Below are positions 5,858 to 62,035 of a stretch of DNA of 64,000 bases, piece after piece (the first letter of the stretch is position 1; every line of letters starts with the position of its first letter). The position numbers and the translations under genes were made by a program. The stretch is from the NCBI GenBank assembly GCA_021793515.1, contig JAJYSP010000003.1, positions 62,001 to 126,000 on the forward strand, written 5' to 3'. Source of the stretch: Actinomycetes bacterium (GTDB taxonomy: Bacteria > Actinomycetota > Acidimicrobiia > Acidimicrobiales > RAAP-2). Below the pieces are notes generated by a model, which did no database searches, was not told where the DNA came from, and saw nothing but the letters and a program-made list of their open reading frames with translations.

Positions 5858-7009
5858 CTACACCCCGAGCATCCGGGCGATAAGCATCTTTTGCACCTCG
5901 CTGGTGCCCTCGCCGATCTCGAGGATCTTCGAGTCCCGGTAGTGACGCGCGACCGGGCACTCGTTCATGAACCCGTAGCCGCCGTGGATCTGGGTGGCGT
6001 CGCGCGCGTTGTCCATCGCGGCGTTGCTCGCGACGAGCTTGGCGATGGCCGCCTCTTTCTTGAAGGGGCGTCCCGCGAGCATCCGCGCCGCGGCGTCGTA
6101 GTAGGTGCAGCGCGCGCTGTGGGCGCGCGCCTCCATCTCGGCGATCTTGAAGGCGATCGACTGGTTTCGCCCGATCGCGTGACCGAAGGCCTCGCGCTCG
6201 TTGGCGTAGGCGACGCTCTCGTCGACGCAACCCTGGGCCGCGCCGACGGCTAACGCGGCGATGGCGATGCGGCCCTCGTCAAGGATCTGCAGGAAGTTGC
6301 TGTAGCCGCGGCCGCGCTCCCCGAGCAGGTTCTCCTCGGGGACCCGCAGGTCGCTAAAGGAGAGCGGGTGGGTGTCCGAGGCGCGCCAGCCGACCTTGTC
6401 GTAGGCGGGCTCGACGGTGAATCCCGGTGTGGGGACCTCGACGAGGATCGAGCTGATGGCCTTTCGACCGTCGGCGGCGACGTCGGTCACCGCGGTGATG
6501 GTCACCAGCTTGGTCAACTCGGTGCCCGAGTTGGTGATGAAGGCCTTGGACCCGTTGATCACCCACTGGCCGTCTTCGAGCCGGGCAGTCGTACGCGTGC
6601 CGCCGGCGTCACTACCCGCGCCGGGCTCGGTCAGCCCGAAGGCGCCCAGGGCCTCGCCCGAACTCAGGCGCGGCAGCCAGTACTGCTTCTGGGCCTCGTT
6701 GCCGAAGCGGTACACCGGCATCGCGCCGAGCGAGCATCCGGCCTCGAGGGTGATCGCGACGCTCTGGTCGATGCGGGCGAGCTCCTCGATGGCGATGCAC
6801 AGCGCGAAGTAGTCGCCGCCCATTCCGCCGTACTCCTCGGGGAACGGCAGGCCGAAGAGGCCCATCTCACCCATCTTGCGCACGACCTCGTAGGGGAAGG
6901 TCCCCGTCGCGTCATGGTGACGCGCCACGGGAGTGACCACGTTGGTCGCGAAGTCCCGAACGGTCTGGCGCAGGTGCTCCAGTTCCGTACTCAGTCCGTA
7001 GTCAGCCAT
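5858..7009 (-). CDS. Acyl-CoA dehydrogenase
   Basis: This 383-residue FAD enzyme would catalyse alpha,beta-dehydrogenation of an acyl-CoA, feeding electrons to ETF. Family signatures are GAFGLTEPGAGSDAGGT in the middle domain and GGYGFMNECPVARHYRD followed by EIGEGTSEVQKMLIAR near the C-terminus. The glutamate in EGTSE is the catalytic base position of short, medium and branched-chain enzymes. Isovaleryl-CoA dehydrogenases usually have Ala or Gly there, so a leucine-specific assignment is not supported. The gene starts 30 bases after the stop of the HMG-CoA lyase gene, so the pair is very likely an operon for acyl-CoA breakdown. Confidence 0.92.
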   Translation of the reverse strand: MADYGLSTELEHLRQTVRDFATNVVTPVARHHDATGTFPYEVVRKMGEMGLFGLPFPEEYGGMGGDYFALCIAIEELARIDQSVAITLEAGCSLGAMPVYRFGNEAQKQYWLPRLSSGEALGAFGLTEPGAGSDAGGTRTTARLEDGQWVINGSKAFITNSGTELTKLVTITAVTDVAADGRKAISSILVEVPTPGFTVEPAYDKVGWRASDTHPLSFSDLRVPEENLLGERGRGYSNFLQILDEGRIAIAALAVGAAQGCVDESVAYANEREAFGHAIGRNQSIAFKIAEMEARAHSARCTYYDAAARMLAGRPFKKEAAIAKLVASNAAMDNARDATQIHGGYGFMNECPVARHYRDSKILEIGEGTSEVQKMLIARMLGV

Positions 7010-11948: not shown

Positions 11949-12377
11949 TCACGATCGTAAGGCCTCAGTGTCGAAGTCGGTCCGGGCGTTGATGATGTGA
12001 CAGATCGCCGATGGCGCACAGTCGTTGGGGTCGAGCCCGTCGGCCCGTGCGACGAGGGACTCGATCACGTCGCGCGCCCGCACGAGGTCCTGGATCTGCT
12101 GGTCAATCGCCGCAGCGCGGCGGCGCAGCACGTCGAGCACGTGCGCGCACGGCGACTCGCCGCGGTCGCGGAACGCGACGATCCCGCGGATCTCGCCGAG
12201 ACTGAGTCCCGAGGCCTGACTGGCGCGGATGAAGCGCAGGCGCTCGGCGGCGTCAGTGTCGTAGTCCCGGTAACCCGAGGGGGAGCGTCGTGGCGCGTCG
12301 AGCAGACCGATCGACTCGTAGTAGCGAATGGTCTTGACGGTGAGCCCGGTCTGGGTGGCGAGTGCCCCAATGCGCAT
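11949..12377 (-). CDS. MerR-family metal-responsive regulator
   Basis: The 142-residue protein has the MerR winged-helix start (residues 1-70, with LTVKTIRYYESIGLL) and a dimerisation helix. Possible metal ligands Cys77, Cys120 and Cys126 sit where mercury, copper, zinc or cadmium sensors carry theirs. The Cys120-Cys126 spacing is shorter than the nine residues of classical mercury MerR, so the metal is open. It is divergent from the mercuric-reductase-like gene and very likely acts on the long-spacer promoter at 12393-12424. DNA distortion to realign the -35 and -10 boxes is the known family mechanism. Confidence 0.88.
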   Translation of the reverse strand: MRIGALATQTGLTVKTIRYYESIGLLDAPRRSPSGYRDYDTDAAERLRFIRASQASGLSLGEIRGIVAFRDRGESPCAHVLDVLRRRAAAIDQQIQDLVRARDVIESLVARADGLDPNDCAPSAICHIINARTDFDTEALRS

Positions 12378-12392
12378 CGTGGTGAAATTCCC

Positions 12393-12424
12393 TTGACTCT
12401 CCCCTCAACTGGAGGGTTTAACCT
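12393..12424 (+). promoter_or_regulatory. MerR-type promoter/operator driving merA
   Basis: TTGACT (12393-12398) and TAACCT (12419-12424) are separated by 20 bases, the over-long spacing typical of MerR-activated promoters. Within the spacer is the inverted repeat CCCTC-N5-GAGGG (12402-12406 and 12412-12416), the expected operator position for the divergent MerR protein. Confidence 0.75.
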
Positions 12425-12495
12425 CGATTGTAGGCGCGTGGACCCCAGGAGCGACCTCGCGCCTCGACCCCCAAGGCACCGAGAGGAGTTTGACC

Positions 12496-13902
12496 ATGAC
12501 GGGAGAAGCGCCCTACGACCTCGCGATCATCGGCTCGGGCAGCGCCGCCTTCGCCACAGCCATCGAGGCGCGCCGACGCGGTGCATCGGTCGTCATGATC
12601 GAGCACGGCCTCGTCGGCGGAACCTGCGTGAACGTCGGCTGCGTGGCCTCCAAGGCCCTGCTCGCCGCGGCCGCGGTGCGCCACGAGGCGATCGCTCCGC
12701 GGTTCCCGGGTGTGGTGACCGCAGCCGCGCCGGTTGACATGGCGGCCCTCGTCGCGGGCAAGGACGAGCTCGTGGACGCGCTTCGCGCCGAGAAGTACCT
12801 CGAGCTCGCTGACGTCTACGGCTTCACGATTCGCTCGGGCCACGCCCGCTTCGTCGCGGGCCCCGCGCTCGAGGTGGACGGCGCGCGCCTCGAGGCGGCG
12901 AACTACGTCATCGCGACTGGCGCCACTCCCTCGATCCCACCGATCGAGGGACTGAAGGACGTCGACTATCTCACGTCGACCTCGGTCATGGCGCTCGAGC
13001 GCGTCCCGGCCTCGGTGCTCGTCATCGGGGCCAACGCCGTCGGCCTCGAGGCGGGACAGTTGCTCGCGCGTCTGGGCGCGACGGTCACCATCATCGAGGC
13101 CCAAGGTCGCATTGCCCCCTTCGAGGAGCCAGCGATCGCTGAGGTCCTCACTGAGGTCCTCACCGAGGAGGGGATCAGCGTGCGTACCGCTACCACCGCC
13201 CAGCGCGTAGCGCGCAGCGGCGACGGGGTGCTCGTCACCCTCGCGACGCCCGGTGGCGTCGAGCGGCTCGAGGTGGCGGCCGTGCTGGTGGCGACGGGGC
13301 GCCATCCGGCGAGCGCGGACCTCGGACTCGCAACGGTCGGGGTCGACGTCGGCGCCCGTGGCGAGGTGGTCGTGGACGACGAGCTGCGCACGGCCAACCC
13401 GCGGATCTTCGCCGCCGGTGACGTGACGGGGCTCGCCCAGTTCGTCTACGTCGCGGGCAAGCACGGCACCGTCGCCGCGGCCAACGCGGTGGGCTCCGAG
13501 CACCGGACGGTTGACTACACCACGATGCCGCGGGTCACCTTCACGTCCCCGGCCATCGCCTCGGTCGGGCTCACCGAGCAGGCGGCGAAGGAGCAGGGCC
13601 TGGACTACGAGGTCAGTTCGCTGCCCCTCGCCTACGTGCCGCGTGCCATCGTCAATCGCGACGTGCGCGGACTGGTGACGATCGTGGCCGAACGCGGCTC
13701 CGGTCGGGTGCTCGGAGTCCACGTGCTCGCCGACCAGGCGGGCGAGGTGATCGCGGGCGCGGTCTACGCGATGCAGGGCGGTCTCACGGTATCGGATCTC
13801 GCGGCGGCGTGGACGCCGTACCTAACGATGACCGAGGCGATCAAACTCGCGGCCCAGTCCTTCTCGCGCGATGTGGCGACGCTCTCGTGCTGTGCCAGTT
13901 GA
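12496..13902 (+). CDS. merA: Mercuric reductase-like flavoprotein disulfide reductase
   Basis: This 468-residue enzyme of the pyridine nucleotide-disulfide oxidoreductase family would reduce Hg(II) to volatile Hg(0) with NADPH. It has the FAD motif IIGSGSAAFA, the redox pair Cys44/Cys49 in GGTCVNVGC, and a second dinucleotide fold near 160-200. The C-terminal vicinal cysteines in LSCCAS are the hallmark MerA metal-shuttling pair. The N-terminal heavy-metal-associated domain found in many MerA proteins is absent, as in several actinobacterial forms. ATG 12496 follows GAGAGGAG by seven bases; TTG 12490 is less likely. No merT, merP or merB accompanies it, so uptake must rely on other routes. 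Confidence 0.88.
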   Translation: MTGEAPYDLAIIGSGSAAFATAIEARRRGASVVMIEHGLVGGTCVNVGCVASKALLAAAAVRHEAIAPRFPGVVTAAAPVDMAALVAGKDELVDALRAEKYLELADVYGFTIRSGHARFVAGPALEVDGARLEAANYVIATGATPSIPPIEGLKDVDYLTSTSVMALERVPASVLVIGANAVGLEAGQLLARLGATVTIIEAQGRIAPFEEPAIAEVLTEVLTEEGISVRTATTAQRVARSGDGVLVTLATPGGVERLEVAAVLVATGRHPASADLGLATVGVDVGARGEVVVDDELRTANPRIFAAGDVTGLAQFVYVAGKHGTVAAANAVGSEHRTVDYTTMPRVTFTSPAIASVGLTEQAAKEQGLDYEVSSLPLAYVPRAIVNRDVRGLVTIVAERGSGRVLGVHVLADQAGEVIAGAVYAMQGGLTVSDLAAAWTPYLTMTEAIKLAAQSFSRDVATLSCCAS

Positions 13903-13930: not shown

Positions 13931-13955
13931 ATTGTTCTGCTCACCACTAGACAAT
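13931..13955. promoter_or_regulatory. Operator-like inverted repeat A, upstream of the SufR-like gene
   Basis: TTGTTCT (13932-13938) and CTAGACAAT (13947-13955) form an imperfect inverted repeat. Its half-site spacing matches the stronger repeats at 16098-16125 and 17247-17271. It ends 34 bases before the regulator's ATG, as expected for autoregulation. Confidence 0.55.
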
Positions 13956-13989
13956 CACGGTAGGATGGCGCGAGAGTCTGCGAGCAGCC

Positions 13990-14655
13990 ATGGACACACC
14001 CGACATTCAACGTGAGGCGCGAGCCTTGGGCGACCCGACCCGGTACCGCCTGTTCCGCTACATCGTCGAGGCGGACCACCCGGTCGGCGTGGCCGAGCTG
14101 ACCGACTTCATCTCCCTCAACCACAACGCCGTTCGCCAGCACCTCGCGATCTTGAAGGAGGCGTCACTCGTCGTCGAGCAGGTCGAGACCCGCTCACGTC
14201 CCGGGCGTCCGGCGCTGCTCTACGAGCTGCACCCCGAGGCGGCCGGCACGTGGGGGACCAACGGTGCCTACGCCTGGCTCGCCGGCCTACTCGCCGAGGC
14301 GATGAAGGACGGCCTCAGCGTCCACGACGTCGGTTACCGCGACGGACAGCGCCGCGCGCGGGCCCACGAGGGACTCGACGGTGACGCGGCGATGGAACGC
14401 GAACTGCTGCGCAGCGGCTTTCGCCCGGTGCGTCGCGAGGCCGGCGCGAAGACTGAGTACGTCCTCGAACGCTGCCCCTTCGCCGACGTCGCCGTCACCA
14501 ATCCCACCGAGATCTGTCAGTTGCACCTCGGACTCGCCGAGGGTCTGGCCGACTCCATTGGCGAGTTGTCGGTCGACCGTCTGGTGCGCAAGAACCCCCG
14601 CCACGCCGGGTGTCGGCTCGTCGTCTCACACGGCCTCGACGAGTCGCCGCGCTGA
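13990..14655 (+). CDS. SufR/ArsR-type HTH regulator with C-terminal Cys cluster
   Basis: This 221-residue regulator has an ArsR-like winged helix (residues 5-85; NHNAVRQHLAILKEASLV is the recognition region). A C-terminal ligand set follows: Cys162, Cys176, His179 and Cys208, arranged C-x13-C-x2-H-x28-C. That layout matches SufR-like regulators, where the cysteines hold an Fe-S cluster that senses iron-sulfur or nitric-oxide status. Cluster binding here is inference. The gene stands at the edge of a block with NnrS-like, DUF2249, MIP18-like and hemerythrin genes, and related inverted repeats lie before it and before those genes. It is the obvious candidate regulator of the island. Confidence 0.8.
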   Translation: MDTPDIQREARALGDPTRYRLFRYIVEADHPVGVAELTDFISLNHNAVRQHLAILKEASLVVEQVETRSRPGRPALLYELHPEAAGTWGTNGAYAWLAGLLAEAMKDGLSVHDVGYRDGQRRARAHEGLDGDAAMERELLRSGFRPVRREAGAKTEYVLERCPFADVAVTNPTEICQLHLGLAEGLADSIGELSVDRLVRKNPRHAGCRLVVSHGLDESPR

Positions 14656-16062
14656 TCAGACCGACGGCGTCGCGCGCGTAGCGCGTTCGCGCAGCGCCGC
14701 GGGAATGGTGATCGGCGACGGGAACTGGTCGCTCGGTCCCGGTCCGGCGAGTAGGAGCCGGGTCGGCCGCCAGGCGAGGTTGCACGCGCTCGTGAGCGCG
14801 GTGGCTACGAGCAAGACGCCACCGAGTGCGATGGCGAGTCGGTCCCCGAAGATGAAGCCGAGCGCGAGGGCCGCGACGCTCGCGTTCACGAAGACGTAGT
14901 CGACCGTCGCCCAGCGGTGATTGAAGAGGTCGGCGAACATGAGCTGGGTGCCGTCGGCCTTCTTCGCGATCCCGCGCCCGCGCAACGCCGACCACGCGAT
15001 GAACGGGACGATCTTGTGGGCGTGGCCGACGAGGGCCACGAGCAGCCAACCCGCGAGCGCGACGACCGTGGCCGCGGTCCAGGCGACGCCGCGGTGTTGG
15101 CCGAGGTGGACGAGGACTTCACTGGTCACTCCAAGGCCCGTCGCGACGACGAGCCAGATCGCGGAGCTGACGACGAAGACGACGTGCAGGTCGACGGGGC
15201 GCCGTCGGTGGTGAATGTAGGTCGCGAGCGACCAGAGGTGGGCTCCGAGGCCCGTCGCGACCACCGCCGCACCGGTGACGGCGAGGCCGTAGACGCCAAA
15301 GAGCAGTCCCGGCGAGAGCAGGGCGACCCCGGCGAAGACCGACCAGATCGCGATCCATCCACTGCGATGGCGGCCCGGGACGTGGGAGAGCATGAACATC
15401 GGCCAGAGCTTCTCTGAGACACTGAGGTAGGTGAGTCCGAGCCAGGCGAGCAGGCCCACGCACGCGTGGGCGAGCACGACGTGGCCGTTGAGTACGAACC
15501 ACGCGCCCCGACGGTCGATGACGTAGACGACACCGTAGGAAGCGGTCACCACGAAGCCGATCACCGCGAGACGCAGTCCGACCGTGGGCGCGCCTTTGCC
15601 CCGTGCACGAAGCGGCGCGGTCACGTTCACCACGAGCAGGATGACTGCCACGGCGGCGAAGGCACCACCGAGCTCGACGACGACCTCGTGGCGCGACATG
15701 AACCCGATCGGCAACAGCCACGAGCCGGCGAGCCAGGCGAGGAACGTGGCGCGCGAGAGTCGCACGGAACGCAGTGGCCGCTGGGTGATGACGGGGGTGA
15801 ACTGGTGGATGGCGCCGAGCACGCCCATCGAGAGCGTGGCGAGCATCGCGAAGTGGGCCGCCCCGACGACGACGTCGTCGGTGGGGTCGATCGTCGCGGC
15901 CGAACGGGCGAGCACGACTGCGACGCCGCAGGCCACGAGGCCCGCGGCCGCGGCCGCGAGGAAGCTGAGCGGCACCGACGGCGGTGGCACCCCGGCGGGG
16001 ATGCCGGCCGGCCGTCCCGTCCATCCGCCCTTCGGCTCCGCTGACGTCTGCGGTGTGCTCAC
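14656..16062 (-). CDS. NnrS / heme-copper-oxidase-subunit-I-like membrane protein
   Basis: This 468-residue protein has about twelve hydrophobic segments and histidines placed within or next to helices: GAAHFAMLATLSMGVLGAIH, NGHVVLAHACVG and VGHAHKIVPF. The layout recalls NnrS and other oxidase-subunit-I-like heme proteins, and NnrS is associated with nitric-oxide tolerance. I could not confirm the family by alignment, and bound heme is inference. The gene is divergent from the DUF2249 gene across a 10-base perfect inverted repeat and converges directly on the SufR-like regulator, the two stop codons abutting as TGATCA. Confidence 0.6.
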   Translation of the reverse strand: MSTPQTSAEPKGGWTGRPAGIPAGVPPPSVPLSFLAAAAAGLVACGVAVVLARSAATIDPTDDVVVGAAHFAMLATLSMGVLGAIHQFTPVITQRPLRSVRLSRATFLAWLAGSWLLPIGFMSRHEVVVELGGAFAAVAVILLVVNVTAPLRARGKGAPTVGLRLAVIGFVVTASYGVVYVIDRRGAWFVLNGHVVLAHACVGLLAWLGLTYLSVSEKLWPMFMLSHVPGRHRSGWIAIWSVFAGVALLSPGLLFGVYGLAVTGAAVVATGLGAHLWSLATYIHHRRRPVDLHVVFVVSSAIWLVVATGLGVTSEVLVHLGQHRGVAWTAATVVALAGWLLVALVGHAHKIVPFIAWSALRGRGIAKKADGTQLMFADLFNHRWATVDYVFVNASVAALALGFIFGDRLAIALGGVLLVATALTSACNLAWRPTRLLLAGPGPSDQFPSPITIPAALRERATRATPSV

Positions 16063-16097
16063 GATCTCCTCCGACTGATTCAGCGGCGCGATGCTGC

Positions 16098-16125
16098 TAT
16101 TGTTCTAGTAAAGCATAGAACAATA
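16098..16125. promoter_or_regulatory. Operator-like perfect inverted repeat B in a divergent promoter
   Basis: TATTGTTCTA (16098-16107) and TAGAACAATA (16116-16125) are perfect reverse complements separated by eight bases. The AT-rich palindrome lies midway between the start of the NnrS-like gene (16062, minus) and the DUF2249 gene (16156, plus), so one bound dimer could control both. Confidence 0.75.
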
Positions 16126-16155
16126 CGTGGCTCCACGGAGTCCGGGAGGTGAGTC

Positions 16156-16377
16156 ATGGCAACACTTGACGTTCGTCCAATCATCGCGGCGGGCGACGAG
16201 CCGTTCGAGCAGATCATGTCGACCGTGGGGGCCCTCGGTCTCGACGAGGAGCTGGTCATCATCGCCCCCTTCGAGCCCGTGCCCCTGGAGGGGGTCCTCG
16301 GCTCCCAGGGCTTCAGCTTCGACGCGGTCGAGATCGGGTCCGGCGATTGGCAGGTCACGTTCACGAGGAACCTATGA
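16156..16377 (+). CDS. DUF2249 domain protein
   Basis: This 73-residue protein is essentially one DUF2249 domain, beginning LDVRPIIAAGDEPFEQIM and ending DWQVTFTRN. DUF2249 proteins are often neighbours of, or fused to, hemerythrin and NO-metabolism proteins; their biochemical role is not settled. GGGAGGTGA lies just before the ATG. The stop overlaps the next start as ATGA (16374-16377), so it is translationally coupled to the MIP18-like gene. The operator-like repeat B is 30 bases upstream. Confidence 0.85.
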   Translation: MATLDVRPIIAAGDEPFEQIMSTVGALGLDEELVIIAPFEPVPLEGVLGSQGFSFDAVEIGSGDWQVTFTRNL

Positions 16378-16742
16378 GTACCGGCGAGCCCGACGGCACG
16401 CCGATCGCCAGTGACGCCGTCGACGACGCGTTGAGCTGGGTCTGGGAGGCGCTCGGTGGTGTCTATGACCCTGAGCTCGGTCTGGACGTGGTGTCCCTCG
16501 GCCTCGTCTATGACGTAACGGTCGAAGCCGATGTGGTCGTGGTGACCATGACGTTGACCACACCCGGCTGTCCCGCCTCGGAGAGCATCTCCTTCATGGC
16601 CCGAGAGGCAGTCCTCGCCGTCGACCCGCGCACGAGCGGCGACGTGGACGTGCGACTCGTGTGGGACCCGCCGTGGAATCCCGGGATGATGGATGACGAG
16701 GTTGCCGCCGCGCTGGGCTTTCACGTCCGGCGCGACCGGTAG
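16374..16742 (+). CDS. Metal-sulfur cluster assembly factor (MIP18/PaaD/SufT-like, DUF59)
   Basis: This 122-residue protein carries the DUF59 hallmarks YDPELGLDVVSLGLVYDV (residues ~31-48) and TLTTPGCP, whose cysteine is the conserved functional residue of the family. Relatives such as SufT and eukaryotic CIAO2/MIP18 help mature Fe-S proteins. Placed in an operon with DUF2249 and controlled from repeat B, a role in repairing Fe-S clusters after nitrosative or oxidative damage is a reasonable inference. The start overlaps the upstream stop as ATGA. Confidence 0.87.
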   Translation: MSTGEPDGTPIASDAVDDALSWVWEALGGVYDPELGLDVVSLGLVYDVTVEADVVVVTMTLTTPGCPASESISFMAREAVLAVDPRTSGDVDVRLVWDPPWNPGMMDDEVAAALGFHVRRDR

Positions 16743-16784
16743 ACGTGGCGGTACGCTGCGCGTAACCGAGTGGATGGTGGCGCG

Positions 16785-17183
16785 ATGGCCAGGGTGCAGT
16801 CGGTATCGATTGTGCGCGTGTACGGCGACCCCGGGCGGGTCGGCGAGGAGTATCGCGTGCTCGTGGACCGCCTGTGGCCGCGAGGCAAGACGAAGGCGGC
16901 CATCGACGCCGACGAGTGGGCGAAGGACGTCACCCCGACGCCGACGCTGCGTCAGTGGTACGCCCACGAGGTTGCGCGCTTCGAGGAGTTCGCCGAGCGC
17001 TACCGCGATGAGCTCGCGAGCGACCCGCAACGCCAGGAGGTCGAACGACTAGTTGCGACGAGCCTCGAGCGACCGCTCGTGTTACTCACCGCGAGCCGTG
17101 ACCTCGAGCACTCGAGTGCTGAGGTCCTGCGCTTGGTGCTCGTCGAACCAGCGATCCGCCGTCGGGTCACGCGCCCGCGCTGA
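16785..17183 (+). CDS. DUF488 family protein (YeaO-like)
   Basis: The protein of about 132 residues has the DUF488 signature VLVDRLWPRGKTK near residue 28, with EWAKDVTPTPTLRQWYAHE and LLTASRDLEHSSA further on. Function of the family is unknown. The gene follows the MIP18-like gene by about 40 bases and may be the third gene of that operon. ATG 16785 has a G-rich stretch upstream; ATG 16770 in the same frame is an alternative. The hemerythrin gene downstream has its own operator-like repeat, so the operon probably ends here. Confidence 0.82.
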   Translation: MARVQSVSIVRVYGDPGRVGEEYRVLVDRLWPRGKTKAAIDADEWAKDVTPTPTLRQWYAHEVARFEEFAERYRDELASDPQRQEVERLVATSLERPLVLLTASRDLEHSSAEVLRLVLVEPAIRRRVTRPR

Positions 17184-17246
17184 TCGGCCGGTCGTCGCCG
17201 TCGCAACCGATTCGCCCGGGGCCGTGGAAGCACGTGGGTGACTCTG

Positions 17247-17271
17247 TTATTCTAGGAACGACTAGAACTAA
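17247..17271. promoter_or_regulatory. Operator-like inverted repeat C, upstream of the hemerythrin gene
   Basis: TTATTCTAG (17247-17255) and CTAGAACTAA (17262-17271) flank a six-base spacer. The core TTCTAG-N6-CTAGAA is palindromic, and the left half shares TTCTAG with repeat B. It ends 33 bases before the hemerythrin ATG. Confidence 0.65.
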
Positions 17272-17304
17272 GGAGCGAGCGACGCTCCACGAGAGGAAGA
17301 CGCC

Positions 17305-18507
17305 ATGACGATGTCCGACCACGAAGCGTTCGAGGCGATCCAGTCGCACCACCGCCAACTGGGAGCGGGGGTGGCCCAACGCGTCGACGCCCTGGTCGAC
17401 GGTATCGCCGGCGCTCGGGGCTACGAGCTCGCGCGCGCCGAGCTCGTCAGCTACCTCGTCGATGAGATCCTGCCTCATGCCGCCGCTGAGGAGTTGACGA
17501 TCTACCCCGAGGCGGCCAAGCGCGCCGAGCTCACGGCGACGGTCATCACGATGGTGGCCGAGCACCGCGAGCTCGCCGAGCTCGTCGAGTCGATCGCGGG
17601 TGCGTCCAACGGTGAGGACGCCGCGCGCTTCGCGCGCGCGCTCGCCGAGCTCTTCGCCGCGCACGTCGCCACCGAGAACGAGGTCCTCCTGCCGCCGCTG
17701 GTGGGCGACGAGTCGGTCGGGGTCGGGGTCCTGCTCGCCCAGATGCAGCGACTCACCGAGTCGCGTCCCGAGGCGGCGCCTGACGCGCCCGTCTCGAGCG
17801 CGGACCACGAGTCCGTCGTCGTGACCCAACTGCTCAAGGCGGCGTTGGCCCTCGCGCGCGCGGGCCAGGGCGACGAGGCCTGCGCGATCGTCGCCGGGAC
17901 CTGGGCGACCCTGCACGCCGCACGCCCCGATCTCGCCGAGGTGGTGAACCGGTCGCTGCACCGACTGGTGCGCCTCGTGAGCCAGGAGCCCGTGACCATC
18001 ACCACCAAGCGTGAGGCGCCGACCGAGCGCGCCGACGCGGTGCTCGACGTGCGAACGATGGCCCCCGCGCAGCGCCACCACACGATCTTTGTGACCTACG
18101 ACGCGCTGGGTGCCGGTGAGGCGTTCGAGCTCGTGAACGACCACGACCCCAAGCCGCTGCAGTACCAGTTCGAGGCCGAGCACGCCGGGGCGTTCACCTG
18201 GGACTACCTCGAGCGCGGTCCGAAGGTGTGGCGCGTGCGCATCGGCCGCGTCGCGGCCGCGGGATCAGCGGATGGCGTCGACGCCGTGCTCGACGTGCGC
18301 ACGATGGCCCCCGCGCAGCGCCACCACACGATCTTTGTGACCTACGACGCGCTGGGTGTCGGTGAGGCGTTCGAGCTCGTGAACGACCACGACCCCAAGC
18401 CGCTGCAGTACCAGTTCGAGGCCGAGCACGCCGGGGCGTTCATCTGGGACTACCTCGAGCGCGGTCCGAAGGTGTGGCGCGTGCGCATCGGGCGCGTCGC
18501 GGCGTAG
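17305..18507 (+). CDS. Hemerythrin-domain protein fused to two DUF2249 domains
   Basis: This 400-residue protein begins with an HHE hemerythrin domain (residues ~5-135) holding a full set of diiron ligands: His15/16, His58, Glu62, His87, His120 and Glu124. A helical linker (about 165-230) leads to two almost identical DUF2249 domains (about 244-318 and 326-400). Hemerythrin and DUF2249 proteins recur in nitric-oxide and anaerobic-respiration loci, so NO or O2 binding is likely; the DUF2249 role is unknown. ATG 17305 follows AAGGAGCGAG at some distance and GAGGAAG more closely. Operator-like repeat C lies just upstream. It ends 23 bases before the convergent rsgA stop. Confidence 0.85.
   Translation: MTMSDHEAFEAIQSHHRQLGAGVAQRVDALVDGIAGARGYELARAELVSYLVDEILPHAAAEELTIYPEAAKRAELTATVITMVAEHRELAELVESIAGASNGEDAARFARALAELFAAHVATENEVLLPPLVGDESVGVGVLLAQMQRLTESRPEAAPDAPVSSADHESVVVTQLLKAALALARAGQGDEACAIVAGTWATLHAARPDLAEVVNRSLHRLVRLVSQEPVTITTKREAPTERADAVLDVRTMAPAQRHHTIFVTYDALGAGEAFELVNDHDPKPLQYQFEAEHAGAFTWDYLERGPKVWRVRIGRVAAAGSADGVDAVLDVRTMAPAQRHHTIFVTYDALGVGEAFELVNDHDPKPLQYQFEAEHAGAFIWDYLERGPKVWRVRIGRVAA
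18034..18504 (+). repeat. Near-identical tandem duplication of the DUF2249 coding segment
   Basis: The 225 bases at 18034-18258 recur at 18280-18504, offset by 246. I count about six differences, roughly 97 percent identity, several of them synonymous. The copies are separated by a short Ala/Gly/Ser linker of seven codons. Confidence 0.92.
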
Positions 18508-61879: not shown

Positions 61880-62035
61880 CTCACCAGTGACGTGCCCGTC
61901 GCGAGCGCTGCGGACAGTGGTTGGTCGTTCCTCGTCGTCGTGCGGTGACGATGACCTTCAGCCCACGGCATCGTGGCGAGCCCGCGACGGACGGACGACC
62001 CTGGTGCGTGCCGACGAGTGGGTAGCGTGGCGGCT

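Follow-up and report, generated by a model that had tools for sequence, protein, structure and literature searches.

A SufR-like regulator and a shared palindromic operator in a cluster of hemerythrin, DUF2249 and MIP18 genes from Acidimicrobiales

Positions 62,001 to 126,000 of contig JAJYSP010000003.1, from an Actinomycetes bacterium, make up the 64-kb window analysed here, which is the whole stretch and lies within G000, a draft assembly of 2.38 Mb in 43 contigs (genomes are labelled G and loci L). From 11.9 kb onwards the window encodes merR (-), merA (+), an ArsR-type regulator called REG (+), a membrane protein called MEM (-), an operon of DUF2249, MIP18 and DUF488 genes (+), a hemerythrin-domain protein called HHE (+), and a (-)-strand GTPase which we take to be RsgA-like (Table 1). 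REG, MEM, the DUF2249 operon and HHE share an inverted-repeat operator that is conserved in related genomes and paired there with REG. REG itself carries invariant cysteines spaced much like those of the iron-sulfur (Fe-S) sensor SufR. In our judgement it is rather probable that an Fe-S repressor of this kind, released by nitric oxide (NO) or oxidants, controls the cluster.

Table 1. Genes and operators of the REG cluster, in window coordinates (nt, nucleotides)
Feature	Position	Strand	Remarks
Operator A, core	13936..13951	.	Core end 38 nt 5′ of REG start; left half degenerate
REG, ArsR-type (HTH_20) regulator with predicted C-terminal V4R/H-NOX-like domain	13990..14655	+	C162, C176, H179, C208 invariant
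MEM, membrane protein with 12 predicted helices and predicted heme-copper-oxidase subunit-I fold, without conserved seventh-helix His pair	14656..16062	-	
Operator B	16098..16125	.	Between divergent genes; core 41 nt from MEM start, 36 nt from DUF2249 start
DUF2249 (COG4309), single domain	16156..16377	+	PF10006, 60 bits vs cut-off 29.5
MIP18/DUF59 (SufT-like) Fe-S maturation factor	16374..16742	+	PF01883; start overlaps DUF2249 stop
DUF488, "inactive N3" subclade, third gene of DUF2249 operon	16785..17183	+	PF22752, 108 bits vs 27
Operator C	17247..17271	.	Core end 38 nt 5′ of HHE start
HHE, hemerythrin domain and two tandem DUF2249 domains	17305..18507	+	PF01814, PF10006

An earlier note on this DNA described related inverted repeats at three places, and all three proved to be real and conserved across relatives. 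Direct reading bears out the perfect 10-nt arms of repeat B (16098-16107 and 16116-16125, with 8 nt between) and the form TTCTAG-N6-CTAGAA of repeat C (17247-17271). The description of repeat A (13931-13955) holds in part: TTGTTCT and ACTAGA are kept, but the site is degenerate, with 5/18 mismatches to the 24-mer pattern TTGTTCTAG-N6-CTAGAACAA, and an inverted-repeat search did not detect it as a stand-alone repeat. With up to 3 mismatches, the 24-mer matches the window twice (B and C) against 0 expected, and genome-wide it finds B and C only. The core 16-mer, TCTAGT-N4-ACTAGA, matches exactly three times in the 64 kb at up to 2 mismatches (A, B and C) against 0.32 expected, and 0/100 shuffles reach three. 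A looser core search of G000 returns 17 places (A, B, C and 14 others) compared with 49 for a reversed control pattern, so that no site beyond the cluster stands out in this genome; operator A alone is not significant without its orthologous sites. The core sites lie 36-41 nt 5′ of the start codons of REG, MEM, DUF2249 and HHE, a position that fits repression, with an activator also possible. As an attempted promoter call gave no clear -10/-35 elements in the operator flanks, repression is what we infer.

A search for REG covered 60 relatives, and the neighbourhoods of its better matches were taken for comparison. The 80 loci considered below are the best 80 of 211 relatives found via helix-turn-helix peptide patterns, and through this selection they lean towards REG proteins with the same recognition helix. 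They comprise 22 from Acidimicrobiaceae, Acidimicrobiales or Acidiferrimicrobium, one from Streptosporangiaceae (L147), one from Bacillota (L090), and the rest from Actinomycetes, Actinobacteria or Actinomycetota, nearly all being actinobacterial metagenome-assembled genomes (MAGs). As far as contigs reach, members of the same genus and of two further families (L040, L044) retain REG, MEM, DUF2249, MIP18 and HHE as a set, in most cases accompanied by DUF488, with the gene order either unchanged or shuffled. The repeats recur in relatives 5′ of REG, at the MEM/DUF2249 divergence and 5′ of HHE, and across orthologues the information content peaks on the operator itself and is low in the sequence to either side.

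Within the 80 loci (966,297 nt), the core occurs at 16, 48 and 73 sites with 0, 1 and 2 mismatches, respectively, or 137 in total, while each of four control palindromes with matching base composition yields 0, 0-1 and 2-8 sites, or 3-8 in total. A site with at most 3 mismatches precedes 35/36 HHE, 33/34 DUF2249, 68/79 REG, 24/33 MEM and 2/3 FAD reductase genes. The scan covered 250 nt from the aligned start, or 150 nt for REG, DUF2249 and FAD reductase; genes with an upstream stretch reaching beyond the locus, or with an alignment not starting near the N-terminus, were left out of the counts. At the same threshold three control palindromes, summed, precede REG in 8/237 tests, MEM in 4/99, DUF2249 in 3/102, HHE in 2/108 and FAD reductase in 1/9; at up to 2 mismatches they precede one MEM and one DUF2249 gene, and none for REG or HHE. 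The 80 loci and the window fall into 45 clusters at 85% REG identity. When one gene is taken per cluster (up to 2 mismatches, 250 nt), the site is found before 22/23 HHE, 18/21 DUF2249, 13/20 MEM and 25/43 REG genes, with 0-1 per control palindrome. Chance matches in 1.58 Mb of Markov sequence numbered 0 at up to 3 mismatches, then 1, 10 and 85 at 4, 5 and 6 mismatches, respectively; any single one of the weakest listed sites could therefore be a chance match. Upstream of orthologues in related genomes, where the earlier note had proposed to look, the repeats are thus conserved beyond control palindromes and mostly accompany the regulator.

The pairing of site and regulator is also seen genome by genome. 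The site in a strict form, with AT flanks and 1 mismatch, is present in 11/16 genomes with a strong REG, defined as E at most 1e-40 by a line drawn after the results were seen, versus 3/45 of the others (Fisher p 2.8e-6). In total, 29 such sites occur in 14 genomes, and the reversed control gives 8 in 7. Of the three genomes with the strict site and no strong REG, G035 holds a fragment of the same cluster that is cut by a contig end; the other two are G015 and G017. MEM is found in 13/61 genomes, namely 11 with a strong REG, G035 and G051. In three loci from other families (L041, L045, L047), REG and sites are found without the core cluster. In loci such as L093, L102, L104 and L106, the core cluster was not found beside REG, yet a site is kept before REG and before a peroxiredoxin gene. 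Two remote REG homologues with a changed recognition helix (L046, L049) have no good sites at their loci; the helix is retained in L048, but the site there is weak.

REG matches HTH_20 (PF12840) with 36 bits against a cut-off of 27, and its structure model (mean predicted local distance difference test, pLDDT, 80.5; predicted template modelling score, pTM, 0.58) joins an ArsR winged helix to a C-terminal domain. Weak Foldseek matches of the latter include Bet3, H-NOX, MopR and YslB, which we presume to share a V4R/H-NOX-like fold. The residues Cys162, Cys176, His179 and Cys208, singled out in the earlier note, are present in the window protein and invariant in 81/81 REG sequences. In the alignment of distant relatives five rows (L020, L022, L025, L028, L032) are out of register (wrong strand or frame) and the others in register. 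The cysteine spacing is X13/X31 compared with X12/X27 in Rv1460 (C203, C216, C244). According to the available text of the respective papers, these three cysteines are required for the function of Mycobacterium tuberculosis SufR (PMC6034842), the protein represses with a 4Fe-4S cluster and is relieved by NO or reactive oxygen species (PMC9045647), and the SufR box of Streptomyces avermitilis is CAAC-N6-GTTG (PMC11995493). REG falls far below the SufR equivalog cut-off (TIGR02702; 20.1 bits vs 178.8) and was dropped as the genome's SufR for this reason. The label "SufR-like" stands for the architecture and the cysteine pattern, but not for the score or for the operator, which is not the published SufR box. 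REG probably works like SufR, as judged from its sequence, but given the low score and the different operator it is not filed as SufR. A second SufR-like regulator, likewise below the SufR cut-off with 42.2 bits, is encoded at G000:C9 (L051:5667-6446), divergent from an Mrp/ApbC Fe-S carrier gene.

Two of the putative targets agree with what the earlier note had named, an MIP18/SufT-like Fe-S factor and a hemerythrin with complete diiron ligands. The MIP18 protein matches PF01883 (76.5 bits vs 23.5), contains the DUF59 motif DPE-X26-31-T-X2/3-C as given in the available text of PMC9045647, and lies below the SUF_assoc equivalog cut-off (84 vs 143.4). The hemerythrin domain of HHE matches PF01814 (58.7 bits vs 25.3) and its ligand residues H15, H16, H58, E62, H87, H120 and E124 are kept in 34/34 sequences; HHE matches neither the RIC model (TIGR03652) nor ScdA_N. 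The tandem DUF2249 copies of HHE (18040-18507) are identical at 215/222 nt, a recent duplication or gene conversion, and the product in several relatives is shorter by about one DUF2249 copy. In the accessible portions of the sources, DUF2249 (COG4309) is a predicted member of the NnrR/NsrR regulon in proteobacteria (PMC1274295) and is linked to nitrate respiration in Thermus and to denitrification in haloarchaea, the haloarchaeal paper also citing connections between DUF2249 and both hemerythrins and the heme-copper oxidase superfamily.

MEM had been called NnrS/oxidase-like. The NnrS part of the label finds no Pfam support, while for the oxidase part a heme-copper-oxidase fold was found. The window protein alone has no Pfam match; COX1 is matched weakly by 2/10 MEM proteins (best E 9.4e-5), and NnrS (PF05940) is absent among the families reported for these ten at E up to 10, so MEM was dropped as an NnrS. 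NnrS exceeded its cut-off in 0/198 genomes of the phylum but also in 0/14 control genomes, and the phylum-wide search therefore does not prove its own sensitivity. The MEM sequence has no match among solved structures at E 10, but the fold search does: the model (mean pLDDT 75.4) aligns to CcoN (8smr_E; Z 30.7, 387 residues, 3.5 Å) and to NO reductase (4xyd_A; Z 29.1, 368 residues, 3.3 Å). Invariant or near-invariant histidines stand at positions 70, 86, 194, 227, 275, 293 and 347. In the heme-copper oxidase family, a His pair of helix VII holds CuB/FeB. The corresponding helix of MEM (232-254), which is seventh by helix order rather than by residue superposition, has no conserved His (H232 in 20/34), so a canonical CuB/FeB site is not expected. 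Going by the model, MEM seems to be a divergent protein of the heme-copper-oxidase fold without the CuB His pair; as such it may bind heme, but it is unlikely to act as a normal oxidase or NO reductase.

Sites also stand before genes outside the core cluster. At up to 2 mismatches they precede peroxiredoxin genes in 6 loci, with an identical site in L102, L104 and L106 (peroxiredoxin identity is Pfam-checked for L093 only, and the frame in L101 looks broken), as well as an FAD/NAD reductase, a CMD/AhpD-like protein (2 loci) and a small protein resembling acyl carrier proteins. This small conserved protein recurs at operators in L080, L083, L094, L129 and L132; its acyl-carrier-like pattern is our own reading, and one member tested had no Pfam match. 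A weakly similar small protein (27% over 66 residues) is encoded beside a truncated hemoglobin at L047:879-1157. G052 has a 1-mismatch site ~180 nt upstream of a truncated-hemoglobin gene (globin 21.8 bits vs 21) that is located near REG. In G055, from another family, a RIC gene (229.6 bits vs 204.7) and sufB (872.6 vs 717) are found within ~7 kb of REG, with an exact site 92 nt upstream of sufB and a weak one (6/18 mismatches to the 24-mer) at RIC. Operators before sufB in general were rejected, since 13/14 genomes, including G000, have no site (up to 2 mismatches) within 1.5 kb of sufB, some loci being cut by contig ends; four of the genomes tested have 3-mismatch matches, and the exact site is found only in G055. 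FAD reductase was rejected as a universal member, with close relatives (at least 59% identity) in 4/14 genomes and a best match of 25% in G000; the copies at C76 and C115 of G008 have no site (up to 2 mismatches) within 350 nt.

Two further arrangements deserve mention in their own right. The merR and merA genes occupy 11949-13902, directly 5′ of REG (MerA 546 bits vs 454), and the same arrangement is seen in L076. In L072, a locus of G017 with no REG nearby, three motif-like sites lie within 90 nt (6461-6549) before a gene that resembles, from our reading, an XRE/HigA-type regulator; this array probably belongs to another regulator.

In the mechanism that we favour, REG would be an ArsR/SufR-like repressor, probably a dimer, with an Fe-S cluster held by Cys162, Cys176, Cys208 and perhaps His179. 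With its cluster intact, REG would sit on TCTAGT-N4-ACTAGA ~40 nt before the starts and repress its own gene, MEM, the DUF2249-MIP18-DUF488 operon and HHE. Damage to the cluster by NO, peroxide or iron loss would release REG, after which the diiron hemerythrin and the oxidase-fold membrane protein might bind or remove NO or oxygen species, and MIP18 would rebuild Fe-S proteins. The signal (NO, Fe-S damage, oxidants) is one we infer from the gene set. The regulator-operator-target scheme of the earlier note is upheld by site conservation and the pairing with REG, but not in its NnrS label, nor by the SufR score and box.

Several observations weigh against this mechanism. Repression is assumed from SufR and from the position of the sites. 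No site was found in the scanned stretch of 11/79 REG and 9/33 MEM genes. The strict site form is missing from 5/16 strong-REG genomes; near REG, looser or different sites are seen in G000, G055 and G057, the G042 locus has only a weak site 5′ of REG, and the G049 locus has no good site. Motif-like sites occur at unrelated places in G015 and G017, which have no strong REG or cluster. G051, a MAG listed as 95% complete, has the target cluster (L248 7244-10173) with sites of 2 and 3 mismatches, and a strong REG was not found there, for which assembly loss and control by another protein are both possible. No known NO-specific gene was recognised in the window cluster, and the peroxiredoxin and CMD/AhpD-like targets fit oxidative stress equally.

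These last targets, with sites before peroxiredoxin genes in six loci (identical in three) and CMD/AhpD-like genes in two, would suit REG and its operator as a general redox, peroxide or O2 regulator to which NO is irrelevant, the hemerythrin storing or sensing O2. So would the fact that the labelled targets include no recognised NO reductase or flavohemoglobin, although no dedicated search for them at the sites was made. We regard such a regulator as unlikely: the available texts connect DUF2249 with nitrogen-oxide genes in three groups (proteobacteria, Thermus, haloarchaea), and a RIC gene (with a weak site) and a truncated-hemoglobin gene lie behind sites. As between NO and general oxidative stress, the presence of RIC, truncated hemoglobin, DUF2249 and hemerythrin would favour the former and that of peroxiredoxin the latter.

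There is little chance that REG is instead a metal-responsive ArsR/SmtB-type repressor (Hg, As, Cu) whose cysteines bind a thiophilic metal. Its ArsR-type helix-turn-helix and its neighbours would speak for this: merR and merA lie next to REG both in the window and in L076, and L134 has a merA homologue not far from its REG. However, neither in the window nor in L076 does such an operator precede merR or merA, merA matches occur in 3/80 loci and near REG in 2 (the loci differing in length), and none of the recognised targets is a metal-export gene. The cysteines of REG are spaced much as in SufR and differently from the metal sites of ArsR proteins. Least likely of all is that the palindrome is bound by another regulator that also controls REG. 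The operator-like sites of G051 without a strong REG, and the motif-like sites of G017 and G015 with no REG nearby, could be explained in this way. Against it, sites co-occur with REG, including in L041, L045 and L047 where the core cluster is missing, and the changed-helix homologues (L046, L049) are without good sites, though the helix-keeping L048 has a weak one.

The regulator type, the hemerythrin, MIP18 and the DUF2249 link are of known kinds. The combination, the operator and the oxidase-fold partner without a CuB pair are new within the literature searched, in that no description of the gene set or operator was found among the matches listed in the open-access literature (titles and abstract openings; subscription papers and preprints were outside the scope). 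A broader and more doubtful scenario, offered tentatively, is that Acidimicrobiaceae and related lineages redirected a SufR-derived Fe-S sensor away from Fe-S assembly and towards a dedicated nitrosative-stress regulon with new effectors, a CuB-less oxidase-fold protein and a hemerythrin-DUF2249 fusion replacing NnrS and flavohemoglobin. If this is true, G055, whose REG relative is still near RIC and sufB, would show an intermediate state. For a group of actinobacteria represented here almost entirely by MAGs, the Fe-S repressor reading supplies a regulator, an operator and a set of targets with which stress defence can be tested. It also puts the DUF2249 family, of unknown function, and an oxidase-fold protein without CuB ligands under one switch, so that the roles of both DUF2249 and MEM become testable via the signal that releases it.

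REG is like the SufR proteins of Mycobacterium (Rv1460), Streptomyces and cyanobacteria in its ArsR-like helix-turn-helix, three similarly spaced C-terminal cysteines, a site before its own gene and proposed Fe-S sensing. It differs from them in its score far below the equivalog cut-off, in its operator (TCTAGT-N4-ACTAGA instead of CAAC-N6-GTTG) and in suf control, as sufB bears a REG-type site in 1/14 genomes. The NsrR, NnrR, DNR and HcpR nitrogen-oxide regulons, in the available text of PMC1274295, likewise have DUF2249 (COG4309) and hemerythrin-like genes among their members, together with NnrS, a heme-copper membrane protein; however, their regulators are of another family, and their operators are different where quoted there. 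MEM, which is not NnrS by Pfam, has the fold and the 12 predicted helices of heme-copper oxidase and NO reductase subunit I (CcoN, NorB), but not the conserved seventh-helix His pair. HHE shares a hemerythrin-type diiron domain and an Fe-S context with the di-iron repair proteins RIC, YtfE and ScdA, but in place of ScdA_N and a RIC match it carries DUF2249 domains.

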